DNA of 64,000 bases from Thermoleophilum album (GTDB lineage Bacteria > Actinomycetota > Thermoleophilia > Solirubrobacterales > Thermoleophilaceae): assembly GCF_900108055.1 (NCBI RefSeq), contig NZ_FNWJ01000001.1, forward strand, positions 62,001 through 126,000, written 5' to 3'. Made by a program: the position numbers and the translations under genes. Positions 5,387 through 29,002 of the stretch are shown piece after piece; positions within the stretch are counted from its first letter, which is position 1; each line of letters starts with the position of its first letter. Under the pieces are notes generated by a model. The model searched no databases and had not been told where the DNA came from. It was given only the letters and a program-made list of their open reading frames with translations.

Positions 5387-6555
5387 CGTGAAGCGCGCGC
5401 GGCGGCGACGGCGAGCGCCCGGCGGAGCGCCTCGTCGGCGCGCGTGCGCGGGTCGTCACGGGCAGCAACGTCGGGGCGCAGTCCACCGCGCCCGATGCGG
5501 CGACCGTCCGGGAGCTCGTAGAAGGCGACGGTGATGTCGAGCACGCCGCCGTTCGAGAGTTGGAAGAGCTCCTGCACGACGCCCTTGCCGAAGGTCCGGG
5601 TTCCGACGAGCTCGGCTCGCCGGCGCGCGCGCAGAGCGCCCGCGACGATCTCCGAGGCGCTCGCGCTGGCGCGGTCGACGAGCACCACCAGCGGCGCCGT
5701 CGGCGCTACCGGATCGCCGGTCGCCCGACGCACCTGCGTGGGCTCGCCGCGCCCCTTCACGGCGACCACCTCGCCGCCACGGAGGAAGACGCTCGATACC
5801 AGCACTGCCTCCGACAACAGGCCACCACCGTTGCCGCGCAGGTCGAGAACGAAGGCGCGTGCCCCCCGCTTCTGCAGGTTCTTCACCGCCCGCGCGACTT
5901 GCCCGTGGGCGCCGTCGCTGAAACCCGCCAGGCGCACCACCCCGACCGGGATCGCGCGCACGCGGTCGAGCTGGGATTCGACCAGCGGCACCTTGATCTC
6001 GCGCCTGACCAGCGACAGCGTTCGTCGCCTACCGTCCGCCCGTTCGACGGTCAGCCGCACCCGCGTGCCGGCCGGCCCTTTGATGAGCGCCGTCGCCTGC
6101 TCCGCACTGAGCCCGGCGATGCTGCGGCCGTCGACGGCGACGATCAGGTCGCCCGCCCGGATACCTCCGCGCGCAGCCGGCGAACGCGGAAACACGCGCA
6201 TCACGCGCAACCCTCGGCGCGTACGGAACACGCTCATGCCAACGCCCTGAAAACGTCCCTCCACCGATTCCCGCAGGCGCCGCGCCTCGTCCGGCGAGAA
6301 GTAGTGCGAGTAGGGGTCGCGCAGGGTGTTGACGATCCCGTCCAGGGAACCACGCTCGAGCCGCGCGCGCGAGATCGGTCGGTAGTAGTGATCGAGGATC
6401 GTGTCGATGATCTCGGCGCGCAGCGCGCGGTCGTCGGCGACGAGCGCCCGGCGGACCGGTGACGGCAGGGTCTCGGGGTGCCCGCCCAGCCAGATGCCGG
6501 CTGCGAGTGCGACGAGGAGCGAAGCTAGTGCGGAGAGGAATCTCAAGGCGGTCAA
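5383..6555 (-). CDS. C-terminal processing peptidase (S41 family, PDZ domain)
   Basis: Cell-envelope serine protease. An N-terminal signal anchor (LRFLSALASLLVALAAGIWL) is followed by a conserved pre-domain with DPYSHYFSPDEARR, a PDZ domain (about residues 95-180, with GGIRAGDLIVAVDGRSI) and the S41 catalytic domain with FVLDLRGNGGG. The nucleophile region is SASASEIVAGAL and the general-base lysine is in TFGKGVVQELF. The frame opens at a TTG (6555); another TTG lies three codons later. The gene follows ftsX by ~150 bases and overlaps the exonuclease gene. A link to FtsEX-controlled peptidoglycan remodelling is plausible from the order but not shown. Confidence 0.92.
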   Translation of the reverse strand: MTALRFLSALASLLVALAAGIWLGGHPETLPSPVRRALVADDRALRAEIIDTILDHYYRPISRARLERGSLDGIVNTLRDPYSHYFSPDEARRLRESVEGRFQGVGMSVFRTRRGLRVMRVFPRSPAARGGIRAGDLIVAVDGRSIAGLSAEQATALIKGPAGTRVRLTVERADGRRRTLSLVRREIKVPLVESQLDRVRAIPVGVVRLAGFSDGAHGQVARAVKNLQKRGARAFVLDLRGNGGGLLSEAVLVSSVFLRGGEVVAVKGRGEPTQVRRATGDPVAPTAPLVVLVDRASASASEIVAGALRARRRAELVGTRTFGKGVVQELFQLSNGGVLDITVAFYELPDGRRIGRGGLRPDVAARDDPRTRADEALRRALAVAAARASR

Positions 6556-20609: not shown

Positions 20610-23129
20610 GTGAGCACCAGCGGCCTAATCCCAAGCCGCGTCTCCCGGGCGCGCAGTTTGGCGAAGCTTGCGGCTGCCGGCGCGCGCTCGGGGTTGCCGC
20701 CGTGGGCGCGCGCGGCGGTAAGTGCCGGGCTGCTCGCCGGGGCAGCATTGAAGCTGGATGCCGCCAGCGTGTTCGAGCGAATCGGTGGGGTGTCGCCCGC
20801 ACCGGCGCTCGCGGCGCTCGCGCTCGCCAGCGCTGGCCAGGCGCTGTGCGGCTTGCGCTGGCGCCGGCTGGTGATCGGGGCGGGCGCGCCGGCGCAGCGG
20901 TTGCCCAGCGACTTTGCCTTCGCGCGCTGCTACCTGCGGGCGGCGCTCTGGAACAACGTGCTGCCAAGCGGCTACGGCGGTGACGCCGTGAAGGTCAACT
21001 GGCTGCGTGCCCACGTCGACCTTCGCCGTGCGGCGGCGACGGTGCTTGGCGACCGCTTGCTGGGGTTCGCCTTACTCGCGCTCGCGGCAGCGGTGTCGCT
21101 GCCGTTCACCCGCTACTCGCTCGCTCGCCCGCTGGTCGTCGGAACCGCACTGCTGGCGGTCGGCATGATGATCGCGACGGTGATCGCTGGCCGTGCCCGG
21201 GCGCTGCGGGCGGCGCTCGCGCTCGGCGGCTTGTACGTCGCGCTGTGGTGCGCGTCGCTCTGGCTGTTGGCCCGCTCCTTAGCGCTGCACCTCGAGCCGG
21301 CGGCGACGGCACCGGTTCTGCTCGTCGCCGGTGTCGCTGCGGCGCTGCCGGTGGCACTCGGCGGTATCGGCACTCGCGAGGCCGGTTTCGTGGCAGCGCT
21401 TACGCCACTCGGCCAGTCGCCGACCGACGCCGTCGCCCTGGGACTGGCGTTCGGCGCCCTCTTGGCAGTAGCGGCCGCGCCCGGCGTCGTGGCACCTGAC
21501 GCTCTGCGCCGCGAGCGCCGCGCGGCCGCACGCTTCGCGCGCTGGCGCGCCCGCTGCAGCTCGGGGCGCGCCCGCTTCGCATCGCTCACCAAGGGCCACC
21601 TGAGCGTCCTTGGCCTGTTGCTGGCCGCGGGCCTCGCCCTGCGCCTCCTGTTAGCCGAGCGCAGCCTCTGGCTCGACGAGACGATCACCTTCGCCCAGGT
21701 CGCGCGACCGCTCGACGAGGTTGTCCGCCTGCAGCTATCGGGCGTGCACCCCCCGCTCTACCACTTGCAGGCGGCGTTGGCGGTCGACCTCCTGGGGCGC
21801 AGCGAGCTCGCGCTGCGGCTGCCGTCGATCGTCTGGTCGCTGGTCGCCGTGGTCGCCTGCTGGGCGTGGGCACGCCAAGCCTTTCCGCGTCTCAGCCCCT
21901 GGCCCGCGACGGCGCTCGCGGCGCTCGCGCCGTTCCCCGTCTGGTACGGCAGCGAAGCGCGGATGTACGCGCAGGTGTTCGCGCTGGTCGCGCTAGCTGG
22001 CGGACTCGCCTGGCGGTTCCTCGAGCGCGGCGGCTGGTACCGCGCCACGGCGCTTGCTCTGACCCTGTGCGCGCTCGCTTACACGCACTACTTCGGTGCA
22101 CTGTTCGGGGCCGCACTCGGCGTCGTCGCAGCGGTCTTGGCAGCGACCCGCGCTGACCTGCGCAAGCGGGCGCTCGCCGTGCTCGGCTGCCTGGCGATCG
22201 CCGCTTTGTCGCTCTTGCCGTGGCTGCTCGCGGCCTTCCTGGGTCGCGACGCGACCTCGCAGTTACCCCCTTACAAACGGCCCGATCCGTTCTCGGTGAT
22301 CATCGCTGTCGTCGAACTCGTCGCTGGCTTCCACGATTACCGAGCGATCGGACTGGCGGCTGCCACGTGGCCGCTCGCACTTCTCGCCCTGCTCCTGGCC
22401 GTTCCCCAACTCGCCCGGGTCCCGGTTTCGGTTGGCGCCCTGATAACGCTGACGTTGCTGCCGGTGGCTTCCCTCGTCGGTGCCTCATGGCTGGGCCCGC
22501 GTTCGGTCTTCGATCCCCGCTATCTGACGGTGATCGCGCCACCGCTGTTTTTGCTGGTCGGAGCGCTTGTGGCGCAGACCGGGCGCAGGCTCGCCGGCAA
22601 CCTTCGCTTGCTTGCGGCGTTCGCTGTTGCCGTACTTCTCGTCTCGCTAAGCGTGATCCAAGGCCAGGACCGCGGGAATCCGCGGCTCTTTCAACTGCGC
22701 GAGGCACTGCAGGCCGCGGCACAGGCCACCGCACCGGGCGATGCACTCGCTCTCGTCCCGCAGTTCCCGCTCACGAACCTGCATTACGACCCGGTGCTGG
22801 CGTACTATCGGCCGCCGCGCTCCCGGCGGGTAATCGACACGCTTAACGGTCCCGGACGGCGGCCGCGCGAAGCCTGGACAATGGCTGCGCGCTCGGGCAG
22901 CCGGCGGATCGCGCTCGTGACGACCTTCGAAGGCCAGGCGCTGTCGCAGGGGCTCGCTTCTCCTTCGCGCTTCGTCCAGGCTTTCCGGAGCTACGGACCG
23001 CTGCTCGAGAAGCGTTCGTTCGCCGGCGTACAGGTACGCGTGTACGCGCTGCCGCGCGCCGCCACACGCCCCGTACGAACAGCTGCGCGCGCTGGGCACG
23101 GCGCAATCGACCGCAAGGAGGCGCGTTGA
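20610..23129 (+). CDS. Fusion of LPG-synthase-like membrane domain and GT39-type glycosyltransferase
   Basis: 839 residues in two membrane modules. Residues ~1-310 match the lysylphosphatidylglycerol-synthase transmembrane (UPF0104/AglD-like) family, with NNVLPSGYGGDAVKVNWLRA, LGDRLLGFALL and ALGGIGTREAGFVAALTPLG. Residues ~325-839 look like a dolichyl-phosphate-mannose-type GT39/PMT-2 transferase: after LSVLGLLLAAGLALRLLL comes the acidic SLWLDETITF motif, then GVHPPLYHL and many helices. The second half would use lipid-linked sugars made by the preceding transferase. The GTG start is at 20610; the stop overlaps the next gene (TTGA). No flippase activity has been shown for the first module in such fusions to my knowledge. 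Confidence 0.85.
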   Translation: MSTSGLIPSRVSRARSLAKLAAAGARSGLPPWARAAVSAGLLAGAALKLDAASVFERIGGVSPAPALAALALASAGQALCGLRWRRLVIGAGAPAQRLPSDFAFARCYLRAALWNNVLPSGYGGDAVKVNWLRAHVDLRRAAATVLGDRLLGFALLALAAAVSLPFTRYSLARPLVVGTALLAVGMMIATVIAGRARALRAALALGGLYVALWCASLWLLARSLALHLEPAATAPVLLVAGVAAALPVALGGIGTREAGFVAALTPLGQSPTDAVALGLAFGALLAVAAAPGVVAPDALRRERRAAARFARWRARCSSGRARFASLTKGHLSVLGLLLAAGLALRLLLAERSLWLDETITFAQVARPLDEVVRLQLSGVHPPLYHLQAALAVDLLGRSELALRLPSIVWSLVAVVACWAWARQAFPRLSPWPATALAALAPFPVWYGSEARMYAQVFALVALAGGLAWRFLERGGWYRATALALTLCALAYTHYFGALFGAALGVVAAVLAATRADLRKRALAVLGCLAIAALSLLPWLLAAFLGRDATSQLPPYKRPDPFSVIIAVVELVAGFHDYRAIGLAAATWPLALLALLLAVPQLARVPVSVGALITLTLLPVASLVGASWLGPRSVFDPRYLTVIAPPLFLLVGALVAQTGRRLAGNLRLLAAFAVAVLLVSLSVIQGQDRGNPRLFQLREALQAAAQATAPGDALALVPQFPLTNLHYDPVLAYYRPPRSRRVIDTLNGPGRRPREAWTMAARSGSRRIALVTTFEGQALSQGLASPSRFVQAFRSYGPLLEKRSFAGVQVRVYALPRAATRPVRTAARAGHGAIDRKEAR

Positions 23130-24760
23130 CGCCGACGCACGTGCCAGCCGGGCCGCGCCCTGACGAGAGCGCTTCGAAGGTCTCGGTCCCTGCACTCACG
23201 CCTGCCGCGGCGGGGCCACCCGCCCCGGTCAACCGCTGGGTGACCGCTATCTGGGTCGTTTTCGGTGTCGCGTCGCTTGTCTACTACTTGCAGTGGTTGC
23301 TGCAACCCGAGCGCGTGGGTGTAGCTCCCCTCTACGCCCTGCTGGTCGCCGCCGACCTGTTCAACGCTTTCCACGCGCTTTCGTTTTGGGCGACGTGCGT
23401 TCGCGATCGGCGGCGCGAACGGAGCTGCGAGCCACTCCCGGGCAAGCCGCGCGTCGACGTCTTCGTGCCCACGGTCGACGAGCCGCTACCGATCCTCGAG
23501 CGCACGCTACGGGCGGCGCGCGCGATGCGCGGAGCGCAAGTGCGAGTGGTCGTGCTCGACGACGGCTCCCGTCCGGCGGTTCGGCAGCTGGCCGAGCGAC
23601 TCGGCATCGACTATCTCGCGCGCCGCGAGCGTTGGGGCGCGAAGGCAGGGAACTTGAACACGGCGCTGGCCGCCACCGCTGACGACGGGGCGCCGCTGTT
23701 CTGCGTCTTCGACTGCGATCACGCGCCGTTGCCGAACTTCTTGGAGCGAACGCTCCCGCAGTTCGACGATCCGACGGTGGCGATTGTGCAGACCCCCCAG
23801 GTGTACGGCAACCTACACAGCGGCCCCCTGACCGCCGCTGCCGCCGAGCAGCAGGCGCTCTTCTTCGGTCCGATCATGCGCGGTCGCGACGCCTACGGTG
23901 CGTCTTTCTGTTGCGGCACCAACTTCGTGGCACGGCGCGACGCGGTGATGGCGGTCGGCGGCTTCCCGGAGGACTCCCTCACCGAAGACATCGTCCTCTC
24001 GACCCGCCTGCAGGCGCGTGGGCTGCGCACCGTCTACGTCGACGAGCCGCTCGCCGTCGGCTTGGGGCCCGAGGACCTCGCCTCCTACTGCTCGCAGCAG
24101 CTGCGCTGGGCTACCGGCTGCCTCGAGCTCTTAGTCCGGAGACCGGGACTCTGGCGCTCGCTCCCCCGCCAAGTCCGTTGGCAACTGCTGATCGCCACCT
24201 CCTACTGGTTGACGGGCTGCACCGTTGCCGTGTACCTCACACTGCCGGTGCTGCGGCTGGCCTTCGGCTGGCAGGCGATCGGTGACGACGCGGCCGGCTT
24301 CTTCACGCACTTCGTGCCCTATTTCGTGACCTGCGTCGTGAACCTCGGTCGCCTCTCTGAAGGTATCTACACGTTCCGGGCACTCGCGCTCTCCTGGGCT
24401 ACCTGCTGGATCCATCCGCTGGCGCTCGCGCGCGCGCTCGTCGGCCGCCGGTTGCAGTTCCGAGTAACACCGAAGGAGGGTCATGCCGGGTTGCCGCTGC
24501 GACTAGTCGCACCGGTCGTGGTGTGGCCGACGGCTTTCCTCGCCGCCGCCGTCTACGCCTGCGCCGGGGGTGTGACTCCCGGCGAGCTCAACAACGTCGC
24601 GTTCGGTGCGGTCGGCTCGGCGCTGGTGCTGGCGGGTCTCGCCATCGCCTGGCGCCAGTCGCGCGCGCTCGCCAGGAGTCGGTCGCCAGAGCAAGCCGCG
24701 TCTCCTGCCACCGCAGTGCCCGCGGCGAGCGAGCTCGCAGCGACCGCTGCTGTCGACTAG
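23126..24760 (+). CDS. Cellulose-synthase-like family 2 glycosyltransferase
   Basis: Processive GT2 of 544 residues in the membrane. Two N-terminal helices (about 33-90) precede a GT-A domain with VFVPTVDEPLPILERTLRAA, VVLDDGSR and the FDCDHAP metal site. The acceptor region is SLTEDIVLSTRLQARG and the product-binding motif is QQLRWATG (QxxRW). At least four C-terminal helices follow. This is the D,D,D,QxxRW set of BcsA-like synthases, but no PilZ domain is seen. The TTG start overlaps the previous stop and is preceded by AAGGAGG. It converges with a GH6 cellulase gene, which supports a beta-glucan product. Confidence 0.88.
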   Translation: MTPTHVPAGPRPDESASKVSVPALTPAAAGPPAPVNRWVTAIWVVFGVASLVYYLQWLLQPERVGVAPLYALLVAADLFNAFHALSFWATCVRDRRRERSCEPLPGKPRVDVFVPTVDEPLPILERTLRAARAMRGAQVRVVVLDDGSRPAVRQLAERLGIDYLARRERWGAKAGNLNTALAATADDGAPLFCVFDCDHAPLPNFLERTLPQFDDPTVAIVQTPQVYGNLHSGPLTAAAAEQQALFFGPIMRGRDAYGASFCCGTNFVARRDAVMAVGGFPEDSLTEDIVLSTRLQARGLRTVYVDEPLAVGLGPEDLASYCSQQLRWATGCLELLVRRPGLWRSLPRQVRWQLLIATSYWLTGCTVAVYLTLPVLRLAFGWQAIGDDAAGFFTHFVPYFVTCVVNLGRLSEGIYTFRALALSWATCWIHPLALARALVGRRLQFRVTPKEGHAGLPLRLVAPVVVWPTAFLAAAVYACAGGVTPGELNNVAFGAVGSALVLAGLAIAWRQSRALARSRSPEQAASPATAVPAASELAATAAVD

Positions 24761-24799
24761 CTCCGCCGCGCGTTCACGCCAGCGCGCCGCTGCCTCGCG

Positions 24800-25951
24800 C
24801 TAGCCGGCCGCTCCGCGCTTAAACCAGGGGCTGTTGCGCACCAACTCGAGCGCGTACTCGACCCAGAAGACACCGCCCGGCGGTCCGCCGTTGCAGGATC
24901 CGTCGGAGGAGCCGGGACCTTTGATCCACAGCAACCCGTCGACCCCCGCCAGGGGCGGCAAAAGCCGTGGCGGCTCGCCCACTGCGACGCCCCGTGGGTT
25001 ACAGCTCTCGCCACGCGGTGTGCGCCCGCCGTTGCGGGAGGTGTCGACCAACAAACCGAAGCGCTTCTCGACAAAGCGCCGACACGCCGACGCTGCGGGA
25101 CGTCGACAGCTGCGTTCCCCCTGCAAGTGCGCCAACCGCGCGAGGATCGCTCGTCCATAGGCGACGACGCGGGCGGTGGGCTGGAAGTTGGCGACGTTCA
25201 GCGCGACTCCGCGCAGGCCTGGACTCCAGATGCGCGCAAGGCGCCGCGCCATTGCCGAGGCGGGTTGCCAACTGGGATGGCCAGCATCGAGGTAGACGCG
25301 GGCGGCCGGCAGCGCCGTCAAGCGCGCGACGGCGTAGCGCAACAAGGCGATGCGCTGGGCGCGCTGCGCGGGGGGCAAACAGCGCCACTCGGCAACCGCA
25401 TCCGGCTCCACCACGATCAGCGCCGGCCGCCGCCCCACGGCGTCGGCGAGGGCGCGCACGCGCGCGCGATAGGAGCGGGCGAGCTCCTGGTCGCGCGCCT
25501 CGAAATGGCAACTGCGGGCCGGTAGCGCGTAGAGCACGAGGGTCGCTAGCGCACGGCTGTCGGTGGCCGCGGCGACCGTCCGGCGGGCGTGCGCGGCCAG
25601 TCCGCTCGCCGACCCCAGCCATGGCCCGAGCCAGGTCGCCTGCGGCCGGCGCGCCAGCCACTCGAGAGCGGCCGCGTCGTCCGGACGGGTCGCCGCCAGC
25701 GCGCGAGCCGCACGTGCCGCCTGTGAATCGGGATCGACCCAGAGGGGCATCGCCGGTGGGGGGCCAGGCGGCGGCGCGGCGCTCCGCATCCCTGCGACTG
25801 CGACCGCGAGCGTCACGCCGCTGAGCGCCGCGCAGGCAGCGGCGATGGTTCGTAAGCGAACGACGCGAAGCAACTCGATGGCTCCTGTGCGGCGACGGCG
25901 TCCGCGGATCACACCAATGATCGCGTCGTTAGCGCGAAGCGTGGAGGACAA
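24800..25951 (-). CDS. Glycoside hydrolase family 6 (cellulase-type)
   Basis: 383 residues: a basic N-terminus and signal anchor (TIAAACAALSGVTLAVAVAGM), then a GH6 catalytic domain beginning PLWVDPDSQAARAA. Motifs are YALPARSCHFEA, the catalytic-acid segment LIVVEPDAVAEW, YLDAGHPSWQPA, LLVDTSRNG, and LLWIKGPGSSDGSC near the C-terminus. GH6 enzymes cleave beta-1,4-glucan. Its place beside a cellulose-synthase-like gene parallels the BcsZ cellulases of cellulose operons, although BcsZ is GH8. The TTG start (25951) leaves 30 bases to the divergent cadC-like gene. Export by the Sec route is likely. Confidence 0.88.
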   Translation of the reverse strand: MSSTLRANDAIIGVIRGRRRRTGAIELLRVVRLRTIAAACAALSGVTLAVAVAGMRSAAPPPGPPPAMPLWVDPDSQAARAARALAATRPDDAAALEWLARRPQATWLGPWLGSASGLAAHARRTVAAATDSRALATLVLYALPARSCHFEARDQELARSYRARVRALADAVGRRPALIVVEPDAVAEWRCLPPAQRAQRIALLRYAVARLTALPAARVYLDAGHPSWQPASAMARRLARIWSPGLRGVALNVANFQPTARVVAYGRAILARLAHLQGERSCRRPAASACRRFVEKRFGLLVDTSRNGGRTPRGESCNPRGVAVGEPPRLLPPLAGVDGLLWIKGPGSSDGSCNGGPPGGVFWVEYALELVRNSPWFKRGAAG

Positions 25952-25968
25952 GGGAGGCCTCTTTTATC

Positions 25969-25984
25969 CACATTTGCTCATGTG
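25969..25984. promoter_or_regulatory. Small inverted repeat at cadC start, candidate metal-sensor operator
   Basis: CACAT and ATGTG are a perfect 5-bp inverted repeat with a 6-base spacer, inside an AT-rich patch (about 25960-25985) that stands out from the surrounding GC-rich DNA. It overlaps the GTG start of the CadC-like repressor and lies in the 30-base divergent space to the GH6 gene. SmtB/ArsR family operators are imperfect AT-rich palindromes of this kind. Confidence 0.45.
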
Positions 25985-26398
25985 TCTGAACGCAGCCACG
26001 CTGCACCGCCTGCTGCGCCGTCCGCCCCGCGCCCTGCCACGCCCCGAGGAACCAGCGTTTGCGACGTCATCTGCCTCGATCTAGACACCGCAGAGCGACT
26101 GCGCCGCCAATTGCCGCCGCTGGCAACCAGAAGAAGAGCGGCGGCACGCGCGGGCGCGCTCGCCGACCCGACGCGCGTAGCGATCGCTTGGGCACTCGCG
26201 GAGGGCAGGGAATTGTGCGTCTGTGATCTCGCGTGGGTGCTCGAGCGTTCGCAGAGCGCCGTCTCTCACCATCTGCGCAGGATGCGCGACGCAGGTCTCG
26301 TCGACTACCGCCGCCGGGGCCGAACGGTTATGTACGCGCTGACCAAGGTCGGTGCGGCGCTTCTCGCGGCGGCGCGGACCAGCCCCACGGCGAGCTAG
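25982..26398 (+). CDS. cadC: CadC-like metal-responsive ArsR/SmtB repressor
   Basis: 138 residues with the full set of CadC-type ligands: an N-terminal CDVICLD (two cysteines) and ELCVCDLAWVL in helix alpha-3, which together form the Cd/Pb/Zn-sensing site in Staphylococcus CadC. The winged helix-turn-helix is SQSAVSHHLRRMRDAGLVDYRRRGRTVMYAL. It starts at GTG 25982 (ATG 25980 is out of frame). It lies 15 bases upstream of a broken metal-transport ATPase, its expected regulatory target. The regulator itself looks intact. Confidence 0.87.
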   Translation: MSERSHAAPPAAPSAPRPATPRGTSVCDVICLDLDTAERLRRQLPPLATRRRAAARAGALADPTRVAIAWALAEGRELCVCDLAWVLERSQSAVSHHLRRMRDAGLVDYRRRGRTVMYALTKVGAALLAAARTSPTAS

Positions 26399-26413
26399 CG
26401 ACCCTGCCCAGCG

Positions 26414-28286
26414 ATGCGAGCAGGTAGTCGTCGGCGCTCGGCCCCCGATCCTCCGCACTCGATCCCCGATCCTCGGCACTCGACGGCGGGTGCCGCCAGC
26501 GCCGCTTCCTGTTGCGCTGACGAGCGGTGCGGGGCGTTGGCCGAGGGGCGGCTAGGGGAAAGGCGTCGAGGCGAGGAGCGGTCGGCGTTGAGCAGCGCAC
26601 ACCGTGAAGGGGTGGGCGCACAGCTCACAAGCGGCGCCCGGACGCTCGCGGCGCCCCTGGCGAGCGGCGCCCTGCTCGCCGGCGGACAGCTGTCGGCGCA
26701 GCTCGCACCAGCGCAAACGCAGGCGCTCGCTGCCAGCCTGCTCGGGGCAGCGATCGTCGTCGGCGTCGCGACGTTCGCACCGCAAGCGATCAGACGGTCG
26801 CTTAGCGGCCGGCTCGGCGTCGACACGCTGATGACGCTGGCGGCGGTCGGGGCGGTAGCCCTCGGAGAGCTCGCCGAAGCGGCAGTGCTGGCTTTCCTGT
26901 TCTCGCTCGCCGAGGGACTCGAGAGCCTCGCCGCCGCCCGAGCCCACCGCGATCTGCGGGCCCTGCTCGCGCTCGCCCCGAAGCATGCGCTGGTGCGACG
27001 AGCGGGTCGCGAACTCGAGATCGACGCGAGCGAGCTACGAGTCGGCGACCGCCTGCTTTTGCGACCGGGGGAGCGGGCGGCCGCGGACGGCATCGTGCGG
27101 GCCGGCAGATCGGCCCTGGACGTCTCGCTGGTCACCGGCGAGTCGCTGCCCGTGGAGTGCGCTCCCGGTGACTTCGTCGCCGCCGGAGCACTCAACTCTA
27201 ACGGTCTACTTGAGATTGAGATAACCCGCGCAGGGTCGGATCACACCTTGGCCCGTCTAGTTCGCACGGTGGGTGAGGCGCTCGCGAACCGGGGACACGG
27301 AGAGCGTCTCGCGGAACGCATAGCACGGCCACTCGTGCCTGCCGTTCTCGCCCTCGCGGGGGCCACTTTCCTAGTGCGAACCGTGTCCGGAGAGCCGCTT
27401 CGCGACGCGCTCGAGCGGACGCTGGCGGTGCTCGTCGCTGCGGCTCCCTGTGCGTTCGCCGTGGGGGTGCCCGTAGTAGCGGTCGCGGCGGTGGGGGCTG
27501 CCGCCCGTCGTGGCGTCGTCGTCAAGGGCGGAGCGACGCTCGAGCGCCTGGCGGCGATCCGCGACTGCCGAACTGCCAGACCTGCGCGAGGTCCGTGAGT
27601 TGCCGGGGACCGGCGTCGTGGCACACGCCGCCGACGGCAGCGAGCTGCGGCTCGGCCGCAACACCCACCCGCACCTCGAGTCGGCACGAGCGCGCGGAGC
27701 GAGCCTGGTAGCGCTGGAGCGCGACGGTCGACCGCTCGCCCTGTTCGTGCTCCGCGACGGCGCCCGCGCTGACGCCCGCCAAGCAGTCGCGAGCCTGCAC
27801 GCTCTGGGCATCGCGACCTTCCTCGCGAGCGGCGACTCCCCACAGGCCGTGCGCACGGTTGCCGACGAAGTCGGCTTGCAAAACGTTTACGCACGACTGC
27901 GCCCGGAGCAGAAACTGCGACTGATCGAAGAGCTGCGCGCCCGCTTCGGGCCGGTCGCGATGGTCGGCGACGGCATCAACGACACGCCCGCCTTGGCCGG
28001 TGCCGATGTCGGCATCGCGCTCGCGGCACTCGCCGGTGACGCTGCCGTGGCGGTCGCCGACTGCGCGATCCTCGCCGACCGACTCGATCGGCTACCGCAA
28101 CTGGTCGCGCACGCTCGGCGCACCCGCCGGATCGTGCTCCAGAACCTGCTTGCGGCAACGGCGATCGTGGTCACGCTGACACCGCTCGCCGCGCTCGGCG
28201 CGATCGGGATCGCTGCGACCGTGACGATCCATGAACTGGCGGAGGTGCTGGTCGTGTTGAACGGCCTGCGCGCAGCCCGTTGGTGA
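26414..28286 (+). pseudogene. cadA: Broken heavy-metal P-type ATPase (CadA-like), phosphorylation segment deleted
   Basis: Two consecutive frames encode one P1B-type ATPase. The first (26414-27598) holds the membrane domain and the actuator motif LVTGESLPVE, the ion-site helix AAAPCAFAVGVPVV, and ends after GGATLERLAAIRD. The second, one frame over (coding from about 27560 to 28286), resumes at ELPDLREVRELPGTGVV and contains GDGINDTPALAGAD and the last helices. Missing between them is the segment of about 65-70 residues that should carry the DKTGT phosphorylation aspartate and the N-domain HP motif, and the frame shifts. No functional pump could be made. It follows cadC. A copy-number or assembly artefact at the junction (~27560-27585) cannot be excluded. 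Confidence 0.85.
26443..26484. repeat. Two 21-bp tandem repeats in the broken ATPase N-terminus
   Basis: Positions 26443-26463 and 26464-26484 differ at only two bases. In the plus-strand frame they read as PDPPHS-I / PDPRHS-type peptides in the unconserved N-terminal region of the ATPase frame. Confidence 0.85.
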
Positions 28287-28354
28287 GGACCGTCCGCGCG
28301 TTGTCTGCGTTAGCCGCCTGCGGAGCGCTGCGACTGCGAGACTGCTAACCGACG

Positions 28355-29002
28355 ATGGCCCTTTACGCCCGCTTGTTCGCGAGCGCCTACGACCGTGTCC
28401 TCGCGGGCTCGGAGCGCGCCGGCTTGGCGGCCCTGCGGCGTGAGCTGCTCAGCCATGCGCGCGGCCGCACGCTGGAGGTCGGTGCCGGAACGGGGCTCAA
28501 CTTGCCGCACTACCCAGCGACCCTCACCGAGCTGACACTCGTCGAGCCCGACCCCGAAATGACGAAACGGCTCGAGCGGCGTGTCGCCTCGCAGCGTCGG
28601 TCGGGCGGCGCGCAGCCGTTCCCGGTGCGGTGTGTGTCGGCCGCCGCCGAGCGGTTGCCGTTTCCGGACGACGCCTTCGACACGGTGGTTTGCACGCTCG
28701 TTCTCTGCACGGTCGAGGATCCGGTGCGCACGCTGCGCGAGCTTCGCCGCGTGCTGGCCCCTGGTGGACACCTCCTTTTCCTCGAGCACGTACGCTCTGG
28801 CGATCCCGCGCTGGCTCGTTGGCAGGACCGCCTCGAGCCCCTGTGGCGACGTCTAGGTCGCGGCTGCCGGTGTAACCGCTCGACCCTCGAGACGATCGAG
28901 GCAACCGGCTTCTCGGTGCTCAACGTCGAGCACCGCCGGATGCCGAAAGCGATCCCGATCGTCGCACCGCTGATCGTCGGCTGCGCCGTCGCCCGAGCCT
29001 GA
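28355..29002 (+). CDS. Class I SAM-dependent methyltransferase (UbiE/PmtA-like)
   Basis: 215 residues with a Rossmann methyltransferase fold: motif I TLEVGAGTGLNLPHYP, the acidic end of strand 2 in LVEPDPEM, AERLPFPDDAFDTVVCTLVLCTVEDP (motif II region) and LRRVLAPGGHLLFLEHV (motif III). The C-terminal region with GCRCNRSTLETIEATGF resembles UbiE-type and phosphatidylethanolamine N-methyltransferase-like proteins. ATG 28355. It stands alone between the broken ATPase and the convergent prfB, so its substrate (lipid, quinone or small molecule) cannot be inferred. Confidence 0.82.
   Translation: MALYARLFASAYDRVLAGSERAGLAALRRELLSHARGRTLEVGAGTGLNLPHYPATLTELTLVEPDPEMTKRLERRVASQRRSGGAQPFPVRCVSAAAERLPFPDDAFDTVVCTLVLCTVEDPVRTLRELRRVLAPGGHLLFLEHVRSGDPALARWQDRLEPLWRRLGRGCRCNRSTLETIEATGFSVLNVEHRRMPKAIPIVAPLIVGCAVARA

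Follow-up and report, generated by a model that had tools for sequence, protein, structure and literature searches.

A split metal-pump gene, probably a pseudogene, beside an intact CadC-type repressor in Thermoleophilum album

We identified a cadC-cadA metal-resistance unit in the genome of Thermoleophilum album in which the gene for the P-type ATPase is divided between two reading frames and lacks the segment that holds the phosphorylated aspartate. The pump gene is likely a pseudogene, and decay is the best reading of the locus. This reading is favored because the catalytic segment was lost out of frame, because sites that are invariant in relatives have changed in excess after the break, and because the genome encodes other pumps with the DKTGT motif. 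Metal pumps are often redundant and prone to decay. Read as decay, the locus is an ordinary decaying pump gene beside an orphaned sensor, one more pseudogene.

Organization and genomic setting of the locus

The window, i.e., the whole stretch of 64,000 nucleotides analyzed here, contains on its plus strand, in this order, cadC, the first and second halves of the pump and a methyltransferase gene (Table 1). A GH6 gene lies on the other side of cadC and diverges from it. The preliminary description placed GH6 30 bases from cadC. The best start of GH6 is, however, the TTG at 25873, which has AGGAG 8 nt upstream, and this corrects the divergent gap to ~108 bp. In the region 23126-25951, a gene for a cellulose-synthase-like glycosyltransferase adjoins the divergent-strand GH6 glycoside hydrolase, and this pairing is kept in the sister genome G001.

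Table 1. Features of the cadC-pump locus, in positions of the window.
Feature	Position	Strand	Description
GH6	ORF 24800-25951	divergent from cadC	likelier start TTG 25873
Degenerate operator-like motif	25966..25987	+	score 7.2; overlaps cadC GTG start
cadC	25982..26398	+	CadC-type ArsR/SmtB-family repressor; basis: Pfam HTH_5, NCBIfam and PDB matches
Putative pump pseudogene, first half	26414..27565	+	membrane helices, actuator domain with TGES, APC metal-site motif
Pump break (junction)	27563..27575	+	~158 nt including DKTGT and HP motif gone; frame shift
Putative pump pseudogene, second half	27567..28286	+	rest of N/P domain with GDGIND; last helices with HELAEVLV
Methyltransferase (MTase)	28355-29002	+	3' of pump second half

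In G001, the corresponding flanking genes (GT, GH6, methyltransferase, prfB and secA) surround an alpha/beta hydrolase gene with no cadC-cadA. An intact cadC-cadA copy at the same place in this sister genome is ruled out, as the hydrolase is found there instead (L066:10523-11668, minus strand, between GH6 and the methyltransferase). This hydrolase has no clear counterpart in G000, the genome of the window, where the nearest matches are 32-40% identical over parts only. A third genome, G002, is uninformative at this place, as the contig breaks off within the MTase. At this locus, the cadC-cadA unit is thus found in one of the two informative genomes of the genus. Class I methyltransferases weakly similar to that of the window adjoin metal-export genes at three other loci (L067:4257-5021, L074:5265-5945 and L068 ~6153-6512, all on the minus strand). 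Judged by title and the start of the abstract, none of the papers listed by searches of the open-licence PMC literature was recognizable as describing the cadC-pump locus.

Loss of the catalytic segment of the pump

The open reading frame at 26414-27598 matches the Pfam family E1-E2_ATPase (E = 4.7e-45) and that at 27510-28286 the family Hydrolase (E = 8.2e-20). The NCBIfam model TIGR01525 is covered from position 1 to 248 by the first half and from 310 to 559 by the second, with ~61 model positions absent. The best structure match for either half is the solved pump 7qbz, annotated 'Cadmium translocating P-type ATPase' (sCoaT). It is unbroken and enzymatically complete and has SPC in the alignment, whereas the window pump has APC. 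This membrane metal-site motif is APC in the window pump and in 30 of 34 scored relatives, and SPC in the remaining four.

As the preliminary description had it, TGES and GDGIND remain in the two halves, the C-terminal half lies in another frame, and the segment with the phosphorylated aspartate and the HP motif is missing. The frame of the first half is open until the stop at 27598, and no single open frame leads from the membrane helices to the P domain. None of the window's six frames encodes DKTGT, a motif kept in all 39 aligned relatives (53 loci minus 7 duplicates and minus 7 incomplete or remote loci: L083, L094, L100, L121, L122, L124 and L125). The HP motif of the nucleotide-binding domain falls inside the missing segment and is likewise absent from the window pump. 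The observation of a pump split with a missing catalytic segment is therefore confirmed.

The size of the loss was measured by tblastn of both pump halves on the 53 relative loci, in 49 of which both halves aligned. The missing length seen most often is 158 nt (19/49 rows, some of which are the same gene fetched twice), made up of 150 nt and the 8-nt overlap of the two queries. The relative pump is in one frame in 48 of the 49 rows, and because the missing length is 2 modulo 3 in all 48, the frame is lost. The exception is the pump of L111, from a Microthrixaceae metagenome-assembled genome, which changes frame between the halves although DKTGT is present. We also considered a moved or detached DKTGT segment. 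A search of the organism's own genome with the matching piece of L082 hit the four other pumps and, weakly (E = 0.28), a place on contig C2, and revealed no lone copy.

Since the stretch with the energy-coupling site is lost, the pump is predicted to be non-functional, and we infer that transport by it has almost certainly ceased.

Erosion of the pump gene and the case for decay

Where reads are lacking, the degree of erosion on either side of a frame break helps to distinguish a genuine pseudogene from an artifact of assembly. Each of 34 relatives was scored against the others at their invariant sites, and showed at most five changes in either half. (This comparison and the comparison of halves below also leave out L111, L115 and L120, which are incomplete or have a broken frame, as well as L070 and L071, which belong to a different pump subgroup with CPC and show 22 and 20 differences at 98 sites.) The first half of the window pump is changed at 5 of 58 such sites, equal to the highest relative, whereas the second half, outside the gap, is changed at 14 of 57, against that maximum of five. 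A Fisher test of half against half gives a modest p = 0.025.

The difference in conservation, second minus first half, is -6.3 points for the window pump, compared with a mean of +2.7 and a lowest value of -1.5 among 31 close relatives. Among the pumps compared, that of the window alone has a second half of clearly lower conservation than its first. Distance alone does not explain this deficit: in L067-L069, which are more remote paralogues (42-50% identity), the difference is +7.5 to +7.9. The gene carries a disabling change relative to unbroken homologues, and also shows signs of relaxed constraint, clearly in its second half only.

It is unlikely that the break is an assembly error in which ~158 nt were dropped from an unbroken gene. 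Such an error would fit two open halves with a single break and normal codon-position GC, and the L111 pump, from a metagenome-assembled genome, likewise changes frame. Both flanks should then look functional, however, and the second half does not, given its many changed invariant sites and a conservation far below that of any of the 31 close relatives. The operator-like site upstream of cadC is degenerate too. Far less probable still is that the first half continues to be made as a non-catalytic membrane protein, e.g., a metal-binding or partner protein. Although erosion is weaker in this half than in the second, and APC and TGES are kept, the final membrane helices and the P domain are absent from it, its number of changed sites already equals that of the most changed relative, and its architecture occurs in none of the 39 aligned relatives, all of which have DKTGT.

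We prefer decay, and some limits can be placed on its timing. Neither half contains further stops or frameshifts (neutral evolution would be expected to create 23-33 stops for each substitution per site) and the codon-position GC of the pump resembles that of neighboring genes. A long neutral past is therefore unlikely; the drift would have to be limited, or some of it would have to predate the break. The preliminary description considered the pump to have decayed recently. Decay is supported by the out-of-frame loss, the eroded second half and the presence of other DKTGT pumps; as to the date, the absence of further stops fits a recent event, and the number of changed sites speaks against a very recent one. 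In phylogenetic trees the end branches are long for both the pump (1.68 against a median of 0.28; tree without L111, L115 and L120) and CadC (1.21 against 0.29), which points to some acceleration, or simply to a lack of close relatives, affecting the unit as a whole. Some changes may predate the break or be common to the cadC-pump unit.

Under decay, the ancestral pump would have been a P1B metal ATPase with the APC metal-site motif, similar to the cadmium pump CtpG, which in mycobacteria is under the control of CmtR. An out-of-frame loss of ~158 nt would have removed the loop with the phosphorylated aspartate together with the HP motif. Ribosomes on the first half would halt at 27598, and the phosphorylation cycle would be impossible for either half. 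The second half, out of frame after the break, may have drifted since, and the repressor would have been left with a degenerate operator-like site and without a working exporter beside it. We infer this order of events, the break and then the drift.

The CadC repressor and its operator-like motif

The repressor next to the pump was previously noted as intact with both cysteine pairs, and our analyses agree. CadC contains an ArsR winged-helix domain (Pfam HTH_5, E = 1.1e-16) and scores above the cut-off of NCBIfam HTH_metalloreg, and its best PDB matches include the CadC structures 1u2w and 3f72 and Lmo1102 9t6r. Numbered from the GTG at 25982, the cysteines are Cys27/Cys31 (CDVIC, CX3C) and Cys79/Cys81 (LCVC, CXC), and both motifs line up with those of 23 relatives and of 9t6r. 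(L008 and L092 were dropped from this alignment, as the motif search missed their first cysteine.) Changes were found at 4 of 39 invariant sites, compared with 0-4 in the 23 relatives; thus, CadC is not clearly eroded. Its frame is intact and probably still yields a protein able to bind metal. The close relatives of CadC, at seven loci of the same bacterial family, are 55-61% identical over the aligned part. If the GTG at 25982 is the start, 26 residues, rich in Ala and Pro, precede the first cysteine, compared with ~4-8 in most aligned relatives. This may reflect an in-frame insertion of ~66 nt after MSER.

A motif scan of these 23 relatives revealed CAAC-N4-GTTAG running into GATGT upstream of cadC in 22 of them, beginning 36-52 nt ahead of the first cysteine codon. 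Left-one-out scores in these 22 are 14.3-27.4, the exception being L115 (-5.9). Twelve of 125 loci contain the exact core CAACNNNNGTTRG, which is directly upstream of cadC in 11 of these loci (8 distinct places). At loci L047-L056, L081-L087, L091, L094, L096, L099 and L110, the motif overlaps a -10-like box. Its position and symmetry make it a candidate CadC operator. This simple motif is common to related cadC genes whether a P-type ATPase or a CDF exporter lies behind them, and represents a testable prediction for a little-studied bacterial class.

At the window locus the best match to the motif is the degenerate one listed in Table 1, and a second weak match lies on the GH6 side (25907-25928, minus strand, score 6.1). 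Random 120-bp stretches of the window (n = 2000) have a 99th percentile of 6.2 and reach 12.5. A search for the canonical CadC operator elsewhere in the genome, with CAACNNNNGTTRGNNTG, gave 1 match versus 1 and 1 for the reversed control, i.e., chance level. With one mismatch allowed, the looser pattern has 12 matches in the window against 6.7 expected, none of them upstream of cadC. At 25700-28400, a sigma-70 scan detected nothing resembling a promoter. A palindrome spotted by eye near 25969-25984 (CACAT-N6-ATGTG, 5-bp arms) was judged not significant.

Alternatively, CadC may have been reassigned to metal-responsive control of the divergent GH6 gene, as raised in the preliminary description, or of the downstream methyltransferase. 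The repressor, freed from the pump, would then have been co-opted, with the Ala/Pro-rich stretch and the changed operator putting these genes under cadmium, lead or zinc control and the truncated pump remaining as a relic. The retained frame, HTH and cysteines of CadC are consistent with this, as are a start region and an operator-like site unlike those of relatives and the weak match on the GH6 side. However, both motif scores are far below the 14-27 of the relatives and below what chance matches in the window reach. Among 14 extended loci GH6 occurs in only one (L066), where cadC is absent, and it adjoins cadC in the window locus only; in G001, GH6 and the methyltransferase stand side by side without cadC. 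The pairing with GH6 being unique and the motif between the genes degenerate, we consider both the reassignment and the co-option that it would entail very improbable.

Relation to known systems and to other metal exporters

According to PMC13043812, the P-type metal ATPase CtpG of Mycobacterium tuberculosis carries an APC motif, its operon begins with the gene for the ArsR-family, cadmium-responsive CmtR, and changing APC to AAA abolishes the cadmium tolerance that CtpG gives. The window locus is similar, with APC in the pump and an ArsR-family repressor in front of it. Unlike CtpG, the window pump has no DKTGT and its frame is broken. Because the phosphorylation motif was looked for and is absent, the pump is not classed as a working member of the CtpG kind. 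The repressor beside it resembles CadC structures more than it does CmtR 2jsc.

The combination of a paired-cysteine repressor with a cadmium-type pump gene also resembles CadC-CadA of Staphylococcus aureus pI258, the system of the CadC structures 1u2w and 3f72. According to PMC6975044, S. aureus CadC has Cys7/Cys11 and Cys58/Cys60, and CadA has Cys-Pro-Cys, unlike the window pump, which has APC and is broken.

The genome encodes four other, intact P1B-type pumps with DKTGT (C1:553910, C1:328277-330103, C1:170527 and C3:8572). The pump at C1:553910 has its own CadC-like gene and is present in G001 too. Given these four pumps, the loss of the window pump need not end metal export.

In several genomes from within and outside the same order, a P-type ATPase gene is directly preceded by one for a CadC relative. 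The exporter behind cadC is Cation_efflux (CDF) in all three same-family loci tested. At these loci (L073, L078 and L079), the closest CadC relatives precede a short CDF exporter and not a P-type ATPase, indicating partner exchange; as in the window, a close CadC stands before a metal exporter, but the exporter is of the CDF type instead.

We also identified, in the same genome as the window, a second damaged P1B pump at L067:8191-9078 (minus strand; G000:C1 ~330190-331080). It consists of a C-terminal half only, with GDGVND and no DKTGT, and lies directly upstream of a DKTGT pump and a CDF gene, with an ArdC-like gene nearby.
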